7,993 nt of DNA, from positions 1 to 7,993 of the forward strand of contig JAJRTK010000126.1 in assembly GCA_024278345.1 (NCBI GenBank), given 5' to 3'. Under the pieces are notes generated by a model. It did not search any database. It saw nothing but the letters and a program-made list of their open reading frames with translations, and was not told the DNA's origin. Source of the stretch: a bacterium. GTDB lineage: Bacteria > CSSED10-310 > JAJRTK01. Below are positions 233 to 7,617 of the stretch, in pieces; the stretch's first letter is position 1, and each line of letters starts with the position of its first letter. A program made the translations under genes and the position numbers.

Positions 233-496
233 CCACCGTTTCGGCGAAGAAAATTATAAAGCAAAAACACGACAATTTGATAGGTCCCCCAAGGATCGTT
301 CCACCCGCGGGCAAAGGAAACGCAAATGTTGGACAAGGAGTCGGGAGTCCGGTATGTAAAGACCTTCCCTGCCGGGAAGAAGTCCGCCCGCCATCGAATT
401 CCAAGCCCCTTTGGCGAAGTGTTTGCGGATCGCTTTGGAACCTGCCTTTTGTCTTTCCTCGGACCGACGTCGCGTCGCTGCACGGGAGCCATCGTC

Positions 497-2626
497 ATGG
501 ATAAACGCCACCCTTCGGGAACGATTTTGGACATCTTCGGCAAGAATACCTTCAACCGCGGCGCCATGCGGGAGAAGCTGCCGAAAACCGTCTTCGAATC
601 CCTTCTTGGCACCATCGAACGAGGAGAACCCATCGATCCAGATATCGTGCCGGCCGTTGCCCACGGCATGAAGGAATGGGCCATGGAACGGGGCGCCACT
701 CACTATTGCCACTGGTTCCAGCCCATGACGGGATCCACGGCGGAAAAACACGATGCCTTTCTTGCCTTCGATTCAGAGCAAAACCCCATGGAAAGGTTCT
801 CCGGCTCCCAGCTCATCCAGGGCGAGCCCGACGCTTCGAGCTTCCCATCGGGCGGCATGCGGACCACCTTCGAGGCCCGGGGATATACGGCCTGGGATCC
901 CAGCAGCCCTGCCTTCATCATGGAAGGCCCCCACGGCGCCACTCTCTGTATCCCGTCGATCTTCCTGAGCTACCACGGCGGCCCCCTGGACAAGAAAACG
1001 CCTCTTCTCCGATCCGTGGAGGCCTTGAGCAAGGCCGCGGTGCGGATGCTCCGCCTTCTGGGCCGGGAAACCTCCCGCGTCGTTCCCCAGGCCGGCTGCG
1101 AGCAGGAGTATTTCCTGGTGGATGGCAAGCTCTACGAACGGCGGCCCGACCTCATGGTGGCAGGGCGAACCCTCCTTGGCGCCGCCCCCCCCAAAGGCCA
1201 GCAGATGGAAGACCACTACTTCGGGTCCATTCCGCCGCGGATCCTTCATTTCATGCAGGACGCTGAACGGGAGCTCTACAAGCTCGGGGTTCCCGCCAAA
1301 ACCCGCCACAACGAAGTGGCGCCCCACCAATTCGAGCTTGCGCCCATCTACGAGGATGTCAACCTGGCCGCCGATCACAACCAACTGGTCATGGAGTTCC
1401 TCAAGAAAGTTGCCGCTCGCCATGGCCTCGCCCTCCTTCTCCACGAAAAACCCTTTGCCGGAATCAATGGGAGCGGCAAGCACAACAACTGGTCTCTCAC
1501 CGACGCCGAAGGAAACAACCTTTTCGAGCCCGGTTCCACACCCCACGAGAACCTCCAGTTCCTAATCTTCCTTGTGGCCGCCCTCAAAGCCGTTTCCAAA
1601 AGGGCCGCACTCCTCCGCTGTTCCATCGCCAGCGCCGGAAACGATCTACGCCTTGGCGCCAACGAAGCACCGCCAGCGATCATTTCCGTCTTCCTGGGAG
1701 AACAGCTCAGTGCTATCCTCGACCACCTTGAAAGCGGCCAACCCAACGGAGAGACCGCCCGGGAAAGCATCGACCTCGGCATCTCGAAGATCCCCCTGAT
1801 CTCCAGAGACAATACTGATCGCAACCGAACCTCTCCCTTCGCCTTTACGGGCAATAAATTCGAGTTCCGCGCTGTCCCCTCTTCCATGTCCATCTCCATT
1901 CCTCACACCGTCCTGGCCACCGCCATGGCCGAAGCCCTCGACGAAATGTCCGGCAAATTGGAGAAGGCCCTCGAAAACACGGAAAACCGGGATCACGCCA
2001 TCCTTTCGCTCTTGCGCGCGGAGATCGCCGCCACCAGAAAAATCCGCTTCGAGGGCGACAACTACAGCGACCAGTGGCTCCAGGAAGCCGAAAGACGCGG
2101 CCTCCCCAATCTCCCCGACACCCCACGGGCCATGAAGCTCTGGATCGATGGAAGCACCAAGGAGCTGTTCCAGCGGTACGGCGTGTTCGATGAAACCGAT
2201 CTCCACTCCCGTTACCAGATCAAGCTGGAACAGTATGTCAAGCAAATCGAGATCGAAGCGGCGCTGGTGGTCGATCTCGTGGAGCAGGACATTCTTGGCG
2301 CTTGTTTTGAGCAGCAATCAAGAACGGCCCAGTCCATCGCCCATCTGGCGGTCGTCACCGAAAGCCCCCATCTCGCCGTGCAGAAGGAATACCTGGACCG
2401 CTATTCCCGCCTCCTCTCCGATCTCATCACAAAGGTCGGCCACCTGAAGCGGCTCCGCGACGAGATCCGGGAAGAACCCGACCTCGAAAAGAAGGGAAGC
2501 CGCACCTCCACGGATCTCTTGGGAGCCATGGAAGAAGTGCGCAAGACCGCCGATGCCCTGGAGCTCCAAACCGACTCCAAGCGCTGGCCTCTGCCTTCTT
2601 ACCTGGAGCTCCTCTTCCAGCACTAG
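497..2626 (+). CDS. glnN: Glutamine synthetase, type III (GSIII)
   Basis: Catalyses ATP-dependent amidation of glutamate to glutamine in the cytosol; GSIII enzymes form large dodecamers. From 497 the protein is 709 aa, near the family's usual 700-730. Numbering from M1 at 497 (subtract 57 from the 326 frame), family motifs run in order: KHDAFL near 84, EPDASSFPSGG near 110, GCEQEYFLVD at 200-209 (metal-binding Glu), KTRHNEVAPHQFELAP at 268-283, NGSGKHNNWSL at 324-334, LGANEAPPAI at 386-395, and DNTDRNRTSPFAFTGN at 438-453. The helical C-terminus ends in the typical WPLPSYLELLF. The start at 497 has GGAG (484-487) nine bases upstream. An in-frame ATG at 326 has a better AAGGA (314-318), but the 57 extra residues look non-family. 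The gene appears monocistronic. The family is certain; only the start is open. Confidence 0.96.
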   Translation: MDKRHPSGTILDIFGKNTFNRGAMREKLPKTVFESLLGTIERGEPIDPDIVPAVAHGMKEWAMERGATHYCHWFQPMTGSTAEKHDAFLAFDSEQNPMERFSGSQLIQGEPDASSFPSGGMRTTFEARGYTAWDPSSPAFIMEGPHGATLCIPSIFLSYHGGPLDKKTPLLRSVEALSKAAVRMLRLLGRETSRVVPQAGCEQEYFLVDGKLYERRPDLMVAGRTLLGAAPPKGQQMEDHYFGSIPPRILHFMQDAERELYKLGVPAKTRHNEVAPHQFELAPIYEDVNLAADHNQLVMEFLKKVAARHGLALLLHEKPFAGINGSGKHNNWSLTDAEGNNLFEPGSTPHENLQFLIFLVAALKAVSKRAALLRCSIASAGNDLRLGANEAPPAIISVFLGEQLSAILDHLESGQPNGETARESIDLGISKIPLISRDNTDRNRTSPFAFTGNKFEFRAVPSSMSISIPHTVLATAMAEALDEMSGKLEKALENTENRDHAILSLLRAEIAATRKIRFEGDNYSDQWLQEAERRGLPNLPDTPRAMKLWIDGSTKELFQRYGVFDETDLHSRYQIKLEQYVKQIEIEAALVVDLVEQDILGACFEQQSRTAQSIAHLAVVTESPHLAVQKEYLDRYSRLLSDLITKVGHLKRLRDEIREEPDLEKKGSRTSTDLLGAMEEVRKTADALELQTDSKRWPLPSYLELLFQH

Positions 2627-3163: not shown

Positions 3164-4411
3164 TCAGCGCCCCCACACACAACCGGCCAGCCGCCGAAAA
3201 AAGCTTGAACCGCGTAAGACGGGGCAACCATGGCGGCAAAGCTCTTCTTCGCTGAATGACTTCACGCCGGAAGCTCTGAGGCCCGTGGCCCATGCAAGGG
3301 CGGGAACGGGGTTTTTTATGTGGTTCCCCGTTGTGCTGGAAGTGGAGTGATCACTGGCCACGGCCACCGCCGCTCCCAAGGAGAGTCGGCGAAGCATCGC
3401 CCCCAGGTGGGCGTCGATGGTTTCCAGATAGGCTGCCTTGGCGGCGGGCTTCCGATCATGCCCCAGGATGTCGGTGGCCTTGACGTGAAGGAGAACGACA
3501 TCGAGATCGCCACGGCCCAGATAGTGGAGGGCTGTCTCAAACTTCTTGCCTAGATCGGTATCGACGTTCGCGGTAAATTCCGACCGCGTAAAGGTGGAGA
3601 TGCCCACCAGGCGAGAGACGCCCAGAACGGTCCTGTCCGCCGCGATACAGAGAGAGCGGAGCCCATATTTCTCTCGGAACGTGGGAAGCTCGATGTGTTG
3701 GCCGGGCTGCCGGACAAGAATCCCGCTGGCCGGTACGAGGCCGGCTTGACGACGTTCCACGTTCACGGGGTGATCCCGGAGGATCTCCCCGGCACAGGCG
3801 ATGGCCTTTCGGAGTTTCGATGCAGTGAAGGCTGCGGCCCTGGACTCATCGAGAGGACCGACGGGAAGGGGGAAGGTTTTGCTGCCTTGAAGGCTCATGG
3901 GATCGTTACCCGAAATGGCGGGGGAGAGCCCGGGTCCACGAAGAAGGATGGCAAGGCGATGTTCGGTGGCGCTTCGGACTCGGAGTGTGATGCCGTCACC
4001 AAGATTCAGGTGATCCAGGGACTTGGCCAACTCGAGGGTGCCACGGCGGATCCGACCGGCACGCCGGTCGAGGATCTCTTGCTCTTCGGTGATCGTGGCA
4101 AAGTTTCCACGAAGAGCGACGTCTCCATCCTCCAAGGAAAGACCTGCTCCGGCGGCTTCCACGGGGCCTCGTCGCGGAATGCCGTGCCAGGGATCGAGGC
4201 CGAGGAGCGCGAACTGGCCAATATGTGTGGCAGCAGTGCCTTCTTGGTCCCGAAGATCGAGAAGGTAGGCTTCTCCTTCCCGGGCCAGTTTGTCCAGGTG
4301 TGGTGTTCTGGCGCAGGCCAGTGGGGTCCTGTTTCCGAGCTCGGAGGAAGGTTCATCTCCGAGTCCGTCGAGGATCAGGTAGAAGAGACGTGCCGGGGGA
4401 CTGGGGCTCAC
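3164..4411 (-). CDS. apgM: Archaeal-type 2,3-bisphosphoglycerate-independent phosphoglycerate mutase family protein
   Basis: A 415-residue alkaline-phosphatase-superfamily protein of the ApgM branch, which interconverts 3- and 2-phosphoglycerate using metal ions. Visible landmarks are DGLGD (15-19), LGLDP (70-74), NFATI (103-107), DRRAGR (115-120), HPVNVERR (214-221), HVKATDILGHD (309-319; metal ligands D314, H318), SDHS (353-356; D354, H355) and H364 in GNHIKNPVP. The family motif GSDxAHL that carries the nucleophilic serine is replaced by GTAATHIGQF (58-67), so the nucleophile would be T62 (ungapped alignment) or T59. Mutase activity is therefore likely but not assured; a phosphatase or transfer role on a related phosphoester is possible. 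The GTG start at 4411 overlaps the stop of the kinase gene as GTGA, with AAGGAGGA (4428-4421) nine bases upstream, so the two are translationally coupled. Last gene of the minus-strand operon. Confidence 0.87.
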   Translation of the reverse strand: MSPSPPARLFYLILDGLGDEPSSELGNRTPLACARTPHLDKLAREGEAYLLDLRDQEGTAATHIGQFALLGLDPWHGIPRRGPVEAAGAGLSLEDGDVALRGNFATITEEQEILDRRAGRIRRGTLELAKSLDHLNLGDGITLRVRSATEHRLAILLRGPGLSPAISGNDPMSLQGSKTFPLPVGPLDESRAAAFTASKLRKAIACAGEILRDHPVNVERRQAGLVPASGILVRQPGQHIELPTFREKYGLRSLCIAADRTVLGVSRLVGISTFTRSEFTANVDTDLGKKFETALHYLGRGDLDVVLLHVKATDILGHDRKPAAKAAYLETIDAHLGAMLRRLSLGAAVAVASDHSTSSTTGNHIKNPVPALAWATGLRASGVKSFSEEELCRHGCPVLRGSSFFRRLAGCVWGR

Positions 4412-5571
4412 GAGCCTCGCTCCTCCTTCTTGCGAACGCGGTGGATGGCATCGGTGATCATGCGGAGAAGATCGCTCGCCGCCTCGTCGAAATTGTTGTT
4501 CTCCAAGATCGGAACATCGTGTTGATCGGCCAGATCCAAGATATGCTCCTGGATCTTAAGAATATCGTCAATCGAGGCTATGGCCTGTTCGGTCCGCCGA
4601 GACCGGGTTGTTTTTTTTCGTTGCAGAAATCGGCCCATGAGGGTTTTAGGATCGAATGTCGCGATGATCACGGGGATCACCGTCGCGCGATCCCCGAAGC
4701 GCATGGCCGCGCTCATGGGCGGCAAAACATGTACTCCCTCCACGATCAGGTGGAAACTCTCCACCACCGCCCGCCGGATGCTGGCTTCAATGCCCACCTC
4801 CACGCGCATGACCTGCTCCCGATACCCTTCGATGACCGGATCGGTGAGAGCGGTGGTGGCCCGATAAGCGTAAGATGAGGAATGGATCGACGGCAGGATC
4901 TCCTTGGACAACAACCGGCGCATGATCTCCCGGATCAGATCCGTGGACGCAATTTTCCGGATTCCCAGCCGGTAGGCGATCTCCGTGGCCAGGGTCGATT
5001 TCCCGCAACCCGTGGCCCCGCCAATGAGCACGATGATGGGGCGGTTCCGATCCTCGATCTGGAGCATGGCGTCGTACCGCCGAAGAACCCCTTTCCCGTG
5101 ACGCTCTTCCACGATTTCCCGGACGAGCTCGTCGTGAACACGCCAGTCGATGGGCCGCGTCGGGATGGCGTTCAAGCGGTTCCAGACTTCCTGGGCTGTC
5201 TCATACGCCTGACGTGGATCGAGCCCGGTAGCTGCCAGCCTTTGGCTCAGAAGTCCCCGGGAAAAAGGCACGGCATTCCCGTCGTGAAGCACCAAAGGCG
5301 GATCATTCTCGTGAGCTTTGGCATCGGCGTCCAGAAGCTTTTCCAAGGCGCTTTGCCCAAGCTCCTTGGCCACCACCTTGTGAAGAACCTCCTGGAGCTT
5401 GTCCGCCGTGACTTCTTCTTCCTCCGCCAGCCGGTCCCGCACCAGGTTCGCCACGGAGTACGCCTCGTCGAATCCCAGCCCCCGTTTGAGGAGCGAGTGA
5501 GTCAGCATTCCCCGCAAAAAGGGAATTCGGCCTTCGGGGCTCAAGACGTGGAGGCGTTGTTTTCGGCTCAT
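4408..5571 (-). CDS. pgk2: 2-phosphoglycerate kinase with two ATP-cone-like domains
   Basis: A 387-residue cytosolic kinase. The family phosphorylates 2-phosphoglycerate to 2,3-bisphosphoglycerate with ATP, known from methanogens as the first step to cyclic 2,3-diphosphoglycerate. Two related N-terminal ATP-cone-like units are visible: RIPFLRGMLTHSL (15-27) with AYSVANLVRDRL (37-48), and AVPFSRGLLSQRL (100-112) with AYETAQEVWNRL (122-133). A P-loop kinase domain follows: IVLIGGATGCGKST (180-193, Walker A with K191), STDLIREIMR (209-218), SIHSSSYAY (228-236), LIVEGVHVLP (275-284, Walker-B-like), and a basic lid segment RFLQRKKTTRSRR (314-326). It is longer than I recall for archaeal homologues, about 300 aa, mainly through the second cone. 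The ATG at 5571 has only a weak GAG upstream. It follows the unknown gene by 46 bases and overlaps apgM by four. An A8 run sits in the lid codons. The actual substrate in this organism is inferred. Confidence 0.88.
   Translation of the reverse strand: MSRKQRLHVLSPEGRIPFLRGMLTHSLLKRGLGFDEAYSVANLVRDRLAEEEEVTADKLQEVLHKVVAKELGQSALEKLLDADAKAHENDPPLVLHDGNAVPFSRGLLSQRLAATGLDPRQAYETAQEVWNRLNAIPTRPIDWRVHDELVREIVEERHGKGVLRRYDAMLQIEDRNRPIIVLIGGATGCGKSTLATEIAYRLGIRKIASTDLIREIMRRLLSKEILPSIHSSSYAYRATTALTDPVIEGYREQVMRVEVGIEASIRRAVVESFHLIVEGVHVLPPMSAAMRFGDRATVIPVIIATFDPKTLMGRFLQRKKTTRSRRTEQAIASIDDILKIQEHILDLADQHDVPILENNNFDEAASDLLRMITDAIHRVRKKEERGS
4421..4428 (-). promoter_or_regulatory. Ribosome binding site of the apgM-family gene
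   Basis: Read on the minus strand the site is AAGGAGGA, nine bases before the GTG start at 4411. It lies inside the last codons of the kinase gene and decides the GTG start that overlaps the kinase stop codon. Confidence 0.75.
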
Positions 5572-5617
5572 GGATCTCAGCAGTGGAGGGCAAGTTCATG
5601 AAAGGCCAGAAAGAGGC

Positions 5618-6421
5618 TCATTGCCCCAAACCTCCCGAGGCGCCGCCCGAGACGACCCTCGACGGCAGCAATTGTTCAATGCACTGGCTGGAAACGACGC
5701 GGTAAGCTGGTTTGTAGCGTTCCCGGTATTCATCGCTGTGGTGAAGAGCTGGATAACCGTGACGGGACATTCTTGACACGAACCTCCGAAACCGGGAGCT
5801 CAAACGCTTGTTGCCAAGATCGGCTTTCCCCAAGGATTTCAGGATCTCCCCGAGCCGAGCCGGCGACGGATGGATGAACTTTGCCGTCTGGAGGAAACAG
5901 GTACCGAGGGCTTGGGCAGAGCCGCCAGCAGCCTTGAAGGGCCGGAGGTTGACCCGGACCAAGAGCCCGGTGGGATGGATCGGCTCGAAAAGGGGCTCGC
6001 TCTTGCTTGCCTCCACGGACTTGAGTTCGAGAGCAAGACGACCCAAAACCGCAGCCGAATCAGAAACGGCGTGCTCCGTCCCCATGACGCCCTGGTAGAC
6101 CAGCTTGTAGATATCCTGCGCCCGAGTTTCGGGGCGCAGGTCGAGGTGTCGCCGGACAAGCTTGCTCCAGTCCGGTGTACCTTCTTTGGCAGCGGCTTCC
6201 CCAAAACCCACGCCGACACCTCCGAAAACAAGAAGGGTCAGCCCCAGTGCCACGACCCACCATGCCTCCGGCCTCCTACCTCCACAATCTCCGTGGAGAA
6301 TGGGTGGAAGCGCCAATTTTCCGCTCCCATCGTGTAAAGAAGGTAGAACACTGCCGAGTTTCTGGATCTCCAAATCCTTCTGGCGCGTCTCAGTCAACAT
6401 GTGGATCGAAGGGAGCGGCAT
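5618..6421 (-). CDS. Conserved-looking hypothetical protein with one N-terminal membrane or signal segment
   Basis: I do not recognise a named family. From the ATG at 6421 the product is 267 aa; GGAG (6433-6430) lies eight bases upstream and the previous gene stops 24 bases away. A hydrophobic segment, AWWVVALGLTLLVFGGVGVG (53-72), is followed by GFGEAAAKEG, which resembles a signal-peptide end, so the rest probably lies outside the cytoplasm. The soluble part (about 82-245) looks like a folded domain with charged and aromatic motifs: RPETRAQDIYKLVYQGVMG (96-114), EHAVSD (116-121), LVRVNLRPFKA (154-164), and a basic, Tyr/His-rich tail with SRHGYPALHHSDEYRERY (219-236). The first 50 residues are unlike the rest; a GTG at 6253 would give a 211-aa protein starting at the hydrophobic segment. 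Its place between a hydrolase-like gene and the phosphoglycerate genes suggests shared expression, not a function. Confidence 0.72.
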   Translation of the reverse strand: MPLPSIHMLTETRQKDLEIQKLGSVLPSLHDGSGKLALPPILHGDCGGRRPEAWWVVALGLTLLVFGGVGVGFGEAAAKEGTPDWSKLVRRHLDLRPETRAQDIYKLVYQGVMGTEHAVSDSAAVLGRLALELKSVEASKSEPLFEPIHPTGLLVRVNLRPFKAAGGSAQALGTCFLQTAKFIHPSPARLGEILKSLGKADLGNKRLSSRFRRFVSRMSRHGYPALHHSDEYRERYKPAYRVVSSQCIEQLLPSRVVSGGASGGLGQ

Positions 6422-6445
6422 TCCAAGATCTCCGGCGAGCCGATA

Positions 6446-7396
6446 TCAACGGCACCAATAATGGCGCGGAATTTGCCCGTGTCCAAAGCGCGAGCGCTCG
6501 ATACGGAAGTTGGTCCGATTTCCGAGGATCTTCCGCAAAGAACGCACCCGCCCTTGCTGGTAAGGAGTGTAAACTATAGCGATGGAACTCTTCGCGTTTT
6601 GAGGATCTTGCGCCCAGTGCCCGAGCTTGCGAGGCAGGTCACCCTGCAATCCGTCCCAGATTTCGATTCGATCCGCTTCGAGCTCACCGGCGTCCAGAGC
6701 ATTTTCCAGGGCGGCGCCGCCCGTGCTATGGACCCGGAGAAGAATGCCGCCGCGCTCAAGTTTGCCCGTTTGGAGCAACTTGGCAGCGGCCTTCGACACC
6801 TCCCGCAGAAGCTCCCCAAAACTCTCGCCGCGAAAGGAAGACATCCAGTCACGTCCATTGGAACGGTGGCCCTGCGGAAGAACGAACAGGCTGTTGGGAT
6901 GGCGAACTCCCCACTTCCGAATCTCCGCGGCGATCCCGCCTTGGGACAGTATTTCGTCGAGGCGGCCACCCTTGCCATGGAAGAAAAGAACAAGCTCCAA
7001 AGGCTTCGTCGGGTTGACCCGCGGGGGAACGTAGAGAGCCACCGGGCGACCGCCGTTGGCCGGGGAACGGAGCAGGGTATGCTGGCCCCCAAGATCGTGC
7101 AAGATTTGAGAAGCAGCGTTGGCAATGGCCGAAAGTCCTCCTCCCTGCCGACGGCTTCCCCCATGCCGCCGTGGCCGATTGGGGAAAACGGATCTTGGCG
7201 GCCTCCGCTGACGGGCGGGCCGATAACCATCCGAAGAATGTGCCGTCTCCCGCCCGGGTGCATCCGAGAAAGCTCTACTTTTCGCCGGGCTTCCGCTCAG
7301 AACAGGACCCTTGTCTGGTGCCGGGCGCGGTGAAGCGAAGGCATCCAGCCCGCTGGATCTGCCTGGTCTGGCTGAACCTGGTGGATGGACACCCAT
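6446..7396 (-). CDS. Alpha/beta-hydrolase-fold protein, substrate unknown
   Basis: From the ATG at 7396 the product is 316 aa. GAGGAA (7409-7404) sits seven bases upstream, which favours this start over an in-frame GTG at 7423 with no clear site. Residues 1 to about 85 are low-complexity, rich in Pro, Arg, Ser and Gly. The rest reads as an alpha/beta hydrolase: GRPVALYVPPR (116-126), LVLFFHGKGG (135-144; oxyanion-hole type strand and turn), NSLFVLPQG (168-176), GGILLRVHSTGGAAL (216-230) with S224 as candidate nucleophile in VHSTGG, D243 or D248 as candidate acid, and FGHGQIPRHYW (304-314) with H306 as candidate base. The elbow lacks the usual first Gly (VHSTG instead of GxSxG). No secretion signal is evident. 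It is the first gene of the four-gene operon. Esterase- or peptidase-type chemistry is possible; the substrate cannot be read from sequence. Confidence 0.72.
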   Translation of the reverse strand: MGVHPPGSARPGRSSGLDAFASPRPAPDKGPVLSGSPAKSRAFSDAPGRETAHSSDGYRPARQRRPPRSVFPNRPRRHGGSRRQGGGLSAIANAASQILHDLGGQHTLLRSPANGGRPVALYVPPRVNPTKPLELVLFFHGKGGRLDEILSQGGIAAEIRKWGVRHPNSLFVLPQGHRSNGRDWMSSFRGESFGELLREVSKAAAKLLQTGKLERGGILLRVHSTGGAALENALDAGELEADRIEIWDGLQGDLPRKLGHWAQDPQNAKSSIAIVYTPYQQGRVRSLRKILGNRTNFRIERSRFGHGQIPRHYWCR

Positions 7397-7617
7397 GGGA
7401 AGCTTCCTCGGTTTTGGCGTCACGTGCGACGACGCCCTGTGGAGAGGTGGCTCCCTCGCCGGAAGGAGATCCTCGCAGAATCGGGGTTGACACCCTCCCG
7501 GTCTCTCCCTCCTCCTTGGTGGGAACGCCAGTGCAGCCTAGTCACAATCTGGAGGAGAACTCCAGGCTGAGACCCAAGAGTCGTTCCCAATCACACAGGT
7601 ATCCCACCACTTCAGTT

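Follow-up and report, generated by a model that had tools for sequence, protein, structure and literature searches.

The archaeal-type phosphoglycerate mutase (ApgM) homologue encoded in the window carries threonine at the position of the nucleophilic serine, and this substitution is a real one, characteristic of a clade. The genomic context of the clade appears to tie the threonine-type proteins (Thr-ApgM) to the 2,3-diphosphoglycerate (2,3-DPG) and cyclic DPG (cDPG) branch in bacteria, which is the new point of this work; cDPG is an unusual compound with storage and protective functions in archaea. Our reading, held tentatively and at somewhat less than an even chance, is that the window protein is a specialised and working ApgM paralogue of the (cyclic) 2,3-DPG branch rather than of glycolysis, acting most probably as a phosphohydrolase in 2,3-DPG recycling.

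The window encodes an ApgM homologue adjoining a 2-phosphoglycerate kinase homologue

The window is the entire contig G000:C45 (7993 bases) from a 6.06 Mb draft genome (88% complete) of a thinly sampled bacterial phylum. The genes that concern us are as follows.

3164..4411, minus strand: ApgM-family gene with Thr at the nucleophile position (415 aa, GTG start; Pfam and TIGR00306 scores, PDB homology)
4408..5571, minus strand: 2-phosphoglycerate kinase (2PGK) homologue, directly upstream of ApgM (387 aa; PRK04220, P-loop)
4408..4411, minus strand: overlap of the 2PGK stop and the ApgM start, GTGA, 4 nt (sequence read and ORF coordinates)
326-2626, plus strand: type III glutamine synthetase, the opposite-strand downstream neighbour of ApgM (GSIII domain)

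Judged by homology, the window gene is an intact ApgM homologue. Its product scores above cut-off for both PF01676 (101.1 bits, cut-off 24.3) and PF10143 (96.4 bits, cut-off 21.5), PDB entries 2zkt, 3kd8 and 3idd are full-length homologues, and the predicted structure matches 2zkt over the full length (Z 39.1, rmsd 3.6, 374 residues). The score for the ApgM subfamily model TIGR00306 is 308.6 bits, under the cut-off of 320, which is exceeded by the clade members G031, G041, G178 and G186 (429–446 bits). NF038358 (PhpG) is the third-best NCBIfam match at 215.7 bits, with the equivalog cut-off of 545 not reached, and scores are also below cut-off for PF01663 (NPP / type I phosphodiesterase; 21.4 bits, cut-off 23) and PRK05362 (phosphopentomutase; 20.1 bits, equivalog cut-off 256). 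The neighbouring 2PGK is a full-length homologue with an intact P-loop (GGATGCGKST) and scores 264.4 bits against PRK04220, below the equivalog cut-off of 343.

The remainder of the window includes a 267-aa ORF (5618-6421, minus strand) with no meaningful Pfam or NCBIfam score, which may be a real conserved gene, and a 325-aa ORF (6446-7423, minus strand) with no family match. The GSIII N-terminal domain of the glutamine synthetase ORF starts from residue 69, and translation probably begins downstream of the first ATG.

Threonine 62 occupies the nucleophile position of an otherwise intact site

The residues discussed below are located in the window as follows.

4211..4240, minus strand: GTAATHIGQF, residues 58-67 (translation; codons GGC ACT GCT GCC ACA CAT ATT GGC CAG TTC)
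4226..4228, minus strand: T62 codon ACA, nucleophile position (gap-free alignment column; Thr in 13/13 of the clade, Ser in 30/30 outside it)
4367..4369, minus strand: D15, metal ligand (near-invariant in 43 sequences)
3470..3472, minus strand: D314, metal ligand (near-invariant in 43 sequences)
3458..3460, minus strand: H318, metal ligand (His in every Thr member, 13/13, and in 14/30 Ser members, the remaining Ser members having Glu)
3347..3352, minus strand: D354 and H355, metal ligands (near-invariant in 43 sequences)
3320..3322, minus strand: H364, metal ligand (near-invariant in 43 sequences)
3629..3631, minus strand: T261 codon, second clade-specific residue (Thr in 13/13 of the clade; Met, Leu, Val or Asp in the 30 Ser members)
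3623..3625, minus strand: L263 codon, the Lys/Arg site of Ser types (Lys or Arg in 27/30 Ser members, 0/13 Thr members)

The first-pass annotation had numbered the motif GTAATHIGQF correctly as residues 58-67 and put it at 4206-4238, where the codons place it at 4240..4211. It had also proposed that a threonine takes the nucleophile site, either T62 if aligned without a gap or T59 with one, and of these the former stands since the alignment needs no gap. MAFFT alignments with 10 and 42 homologues are gap-free in the motif region and bring T62 under the serine column, with the window QEGTAATHIGQFALLGLDP aligned with PGVRVGTDVGHLALFGYNP of the nearest relatives and with the PGSDTAHL-type motif of classic members. 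T62 is invariant in 11/11 aligned Thr-clade sequences and T59 is not conserved, and in the structure model T62 is found two residues before a helix (64-69), with T59 in a variable loop (56-61) of pLDDT <50. We ruled out T59 as the nucleophile, given the gap-free alignment, and the clade-wide occurrence of threonine likewise rules out a sequence or assembly error as its source.

The loss of the Asp that follows the nucleophile, earlier taken as a further sign of altered chemistry, is true of the window protein (H63) but is not diagnostic because this residue is Gly or Ala in 17/30 Ser members and is retained in 10/13 Thr members. Both Asp63 and His66 are absent from the window protein and from G003, a genome of the same phylum. 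The six metal ligands named in the same annotation (D15, D314, H318, D354, H355 and H364) are indeed all present, and the alignment shows them conserved in the Thr clade; the phosphoglycerate-pocket residues R101, N103, R116, R117, R120 and R152 are retained as well.

Threonine at position 62 marks one clade with further residue changes

Among 43 ApgM homologues, position 62 is Thr in each of the 13 proteins in the clade of the window gene and Ser in each of the other 30, and in the tree of these proteins the Thr set forms one side of one branch with 100/100 support. When the tree was constructed with the motif columns omitted this branch retained 100/99 support, and a single change accounted for the threonine in all 200 bootstrap trees checked. 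Within the clade, the window and G003 proteins pair at 98/98 in the first tree, with the pairing unstarred in the motif-less tree, and branch lengths in the window's sub-branch are long (about 1.0–1.3).

Only columns 62 (Thr/Ser) and 261 fully separate the two groups. Position 263 is Lys in two aligned archaeal ApgM proteins of known structure, and basic residues are absent from this position throughout the Thr clade. Lys336 of the bacterial iPGM from B. stearothermophilus hydrogen-bonds the substrate phosphate (PMC3145672), and the equivalence of position 263 with this lysine is uncertain by two residues because hhalign comparison of the ApgM and GpmI profiles puts the GpmI Lys at column 261 rather than 263. 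Residue 172 (His in classic members) was dropped as a clade marker as it is variable within the Ser group.

The first-pass annotation concluded from the threonine that this is an active enzyme with altered chemistry, and we consider this idea plausible. That the enzyme is active but has taken on a different role can be argued because the Thr protein has been kept full-length in a deep clade with the active site otherwise intact. The part that does not follow is that threonine alone implies new chemistry, because phosphopentomutase, a true mutase of the superfamily, has an active-site threonine (Thr85; the PDB contains a phosphorylated form as well as the variants T85E and T85Q). Altered function is better supported by three other features than by the motif: throughout the clade a basic residue has been lost from position 263, T261 has been gained, and the gene is linked with those of 2PGK and cDPGS.

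Thr-ApgM genes are linked with 2PGK and cDPGS

We identified Thr-ApgM genomes as those with matches at E <= 1e-60, sorted by residue 62. Among 386 genomes, Thr-ApgM was found in 8, 2PGK in 17 and cDPGS in 9, and the Thr-ApgM genomes included 2PGK in 7/8 and cDPGS in 5/8 cases (Fisher p = 6e-10 and 1e-7, respectively, though these genomes are not independent, with the 8 falling in five families). All five families have 2PGK. The cDPGS gene was not found in the window's genome G000 (88% complete), G003 or G236. There was no Thr-ApgM match at the same threshold in G111, G247, G320 and G385, all of which have both 2PGK and cDPGS, so Thr-ApgM is not essential to the pathway.

Gene order shows the same association. 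2PGK is directly upstream of Thr-ApgM with no cDPGS between them in the window, G003, G236 and G386, and the order 2PGK–cDPGS–ApgM(Thr) is found in G031, Candidatus Abyssobacteria SURF_17 and contigs labelled Omnitrophota, Coatesbacteria and Poribacteria; a Planctomycetota contig that starts inside the operon has the order cDPGS–ApgM. The cDPGS beside Thr-ApgM in G031 and Abyssobacteria SURF_17 scores 442 bits to the solved Methanothermus fervidus cDPGS (8oru), and a CBS-pair gene follows ApgM(Thr) in Abyssobacteria SURF_17, Planctomycetota, Omnitrophota, Coatesbacteria and Poribacteria. It should be noted that Poribacteria, G031 and G178 (Abyssobacteria genome) may not be separate lineages because the ApgM of the Poribacteria contig is identical to that of G316, a genome that shares its family with G031 and G178. 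The genes of G041 and G186 occur on separate contigs, and no ApgM was found near 2PGK in three genomes with 2PGK but without the Thr gene (L109-L111).

A number of other observations were made in the course of this comparison. Full-length bacterial cDPGS genes 34–72% identical to the G031 copy are present in Abyssobacteria, Omnitrophota, Coatesbacteria and Poribacteria, with a partial gene in Planctomycetota (L033, L091, L094, L095, L097 and L093). In G111 (L104) the 2PGK–cDPGS pair adjoins glycyl-tRNA synthetase and ExbD genes, Thr-type ApgM not being found in this genome, and the cDPGS homologue of L115 (G320:C113:1770-3137) has one in-frame TGA which is possibly a sequencing error or a sign of decay. 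The genes after Thr-ApgM in G003 (L034:7251-8969, 5239-6489) encode CHAD, ParA-like and PP2C/cyclic-nucleotide-binding proteins, with a link to phosphate storage possible. A Thr-type ApgM is also found on mecB-bearing Macrococcus plasmids (L098:7824-9059), where the neighbouring genes encode a DASS anion symporter and a regulator of the LysR family, with no 2PGK nearby, and here it may take part in importing and degrading an organic anion.

Another mutase is present in 6/6 of the Thr genomes tested: GpmI is above cut-off in G000 (402.9 bits), G003, G041 and G186, and G031 and G178 have additional Ser-type ApgM genes. The GpmI of G000 rules out the window ApgM as the only mutase of its genome and, judging from gene content, the Thr enzyme is not the housekeeping mutase.

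A proposed role in recycling 2,3-DPG

As the window gene adjoins 2PGK, its product probably handles the precursor of an archaeal storage or protective compound rather than taking part in sugar breakdown. The pathway to cDPG by 2PGK and then cDPGS has been described (PMC1224877, PMC10690619), with cDPG regarded in a 2023 paper as exclusive to archaeal methanogens (PMC10690619), and the methanogen Methanothermobacter is known to have a membrane-bound hydrolase activity on cDPG, by which carbon would return to 3-PG (PMC1224877). The window shares with the pathway of M. fervidus a 2PGK homologue beside the ApgM gene, and relatives have a full cDPGS in between; it differs in being bacterial, in the ApgM-like third enzyme and, in relatives, the CBS protein, and in having no detectable cDPGS in its genome.

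In the scheme we propose, 2PGK would make 2,3-DPG from 2-PG and cDPGS, where present, would close the ring to give cDPG. The Thr enzyme would bind the 2,3-DPG pool through the retained phosphoglycerate pocket, take a phosphoryl group onto T62 and then release it to water, converting 2,3-DPG (or cDPG, where cDPGS is present) to monophosphoglycerate and so forming the recycling branch of a pathway for a storage or protective compound. A hydrolase seems the simplest reading because the metal site and arginines are kept, the nucleophile is Thr and there is no basic residue at 263. The catalytic residue of the alkaline phosphatase SPAP is also a threonine (Thr89; PMC3145672), and the window protein has a threonine nucleophile (T62 by alignment) and a metal site type in common with SPAP and the NPP phosphodiesterases; the NPP enzymes are also without the iPGM lysine (PMC3145672), as the window clade is without a basic residue at 263, although NPP and SPAP do not have the ApgM cap domain found in the window protein. 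A broader version, in which scattered uncultured bacteria carry a complete cDPG operon, Thr-ApgM hydrolyses cDPG or 2,3-DPG, and the window represents a reduced form cycling 2,3-DPG only, is possible, if less likely than not.

The most serious alternative is that the Thr enzyme is a dedicated mutase which supplies 2PGK with 2-PG made from 3-PG, with Thr substituted for Ser and the reaction unchanged. It has to be taken seriously because phosphopentomutase shows that threonine can serve a mutase of this superfamily, though the B. cereus enzyme (Thr85), which has the alkaline-phosphatase fold and active-site threonine in common with the window protein, has a different cap domain and is matched at only 20 bits against the 256-bit cut-off. 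The window protein also scores near the ApgM subfamily cut-off (308.6 of 320 bits) and four clade members exceed it, the phosphoglycerate-binding arginines are retained, and supplying the substrate of 2PGK would be a natural task within the operon. However, every Thr genome tested has other mutases, and the clade-wide loss of Lys/Arg263 and gain of T261 suggest more than a neutral swap. When set against the ApgM proteins proper (TIGR00306; 2zkt, 3kd8, 3idd), the window protein has the two-domain fold, metal ligands and phosphoglycerate-binding arginines in common with them and differs in having Thr62 for Ser, T261, an aliphatic residue for Lys/Arg at 263 and a sub-cut-off score, and its gene is in an operon with 2PGK and is not a housekeeping mutase. 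We consider unchanged mutase activity to be rather unlikely on balance.

Our preferred reading of 2,3-DPG recycling is less certain for substrate in the window's own sub-branch because the kinase and the Thr enzyme have both diverged and cDPGS is absent. Unless another synthetase is present, the substrate in G000, G003 and G236, where cDPGS was not found, cannot be cDPG, and the product of the window and G003 2PGK enzymes may not be 2,3-DPG because both fall below the equivalog cut-off. It is conceivable, if improbable, that in this sub-branch (window, G003 and G236) the kinase and the Thr enzyme have drifted jointly to another small phosphorylated acid. The 2PGK of G031 is above the cut-off missed by those of G000 and G003, the branches here are the long ones noted above, and the window and G003 proteins have lost Asp63 and His66. 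Furthermore, the 2PGK family includes mevalonate-3-phosphate 5-kinase, which these proteins match weakly, and class I methanogens without cDPGS keep 2PGK, for which a different function has been suggested (PMC2686161). Against such a shift, most of the phosphoglycerate-pocket residues are retained in the window protein.

Phosphonate or diester chemistry of the PhpG or phosphonoacetate hydrolase kind, hinted at when the threonine was first compared with other branches of the superfamily, seems very unlikely. PhpG, a phosphonoformyl transferase (NF038358), is an ApgM homologue with a changed reaction and the third-best match (216 bits), and the Macrococcus plasmid member adjoins an anion symporter rather than 2PGK; but the PhpG score is far below the cut-off of 545 and no phosphonate gene was identified next to the window gene or in the neighbourhoods scanned. 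A literature search found no paper combining phosphonoformyl and phosphoglycerate mutase. That the gene is a dead or decaying copy is the least credible explanation, for although the window protein lacks Asp63 and His66 close to the nucleophile and loop 56-61 is modelled with low confidence, the ORF is full-length and intact, keeps all metal ligands and has a start codon that overlaps the gene before it, and a relative at 42% identity shows the same pairing with 2PGK.

Implications for annotation and for cDPG in bacteria

Several Thr-type proteins are currently lumped by score with the glycolytic mutases, and a signature of T62, T261 and a non-basic residue at 263 would separate them from true glycolytic mutases in annotation pipelines. 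The 2PGK–cDPGS–ApgM(Thr) operon suggests that cDPG may be made by several bacterial phyla. We know of no assigned gene for the hydrolysis of cDPG or 2,3-DPG back to phosphoglycerate, and Thr-ApgM would provide a concrete candidate for cDPG degradation, a step for which an activity is known from a methanogen.
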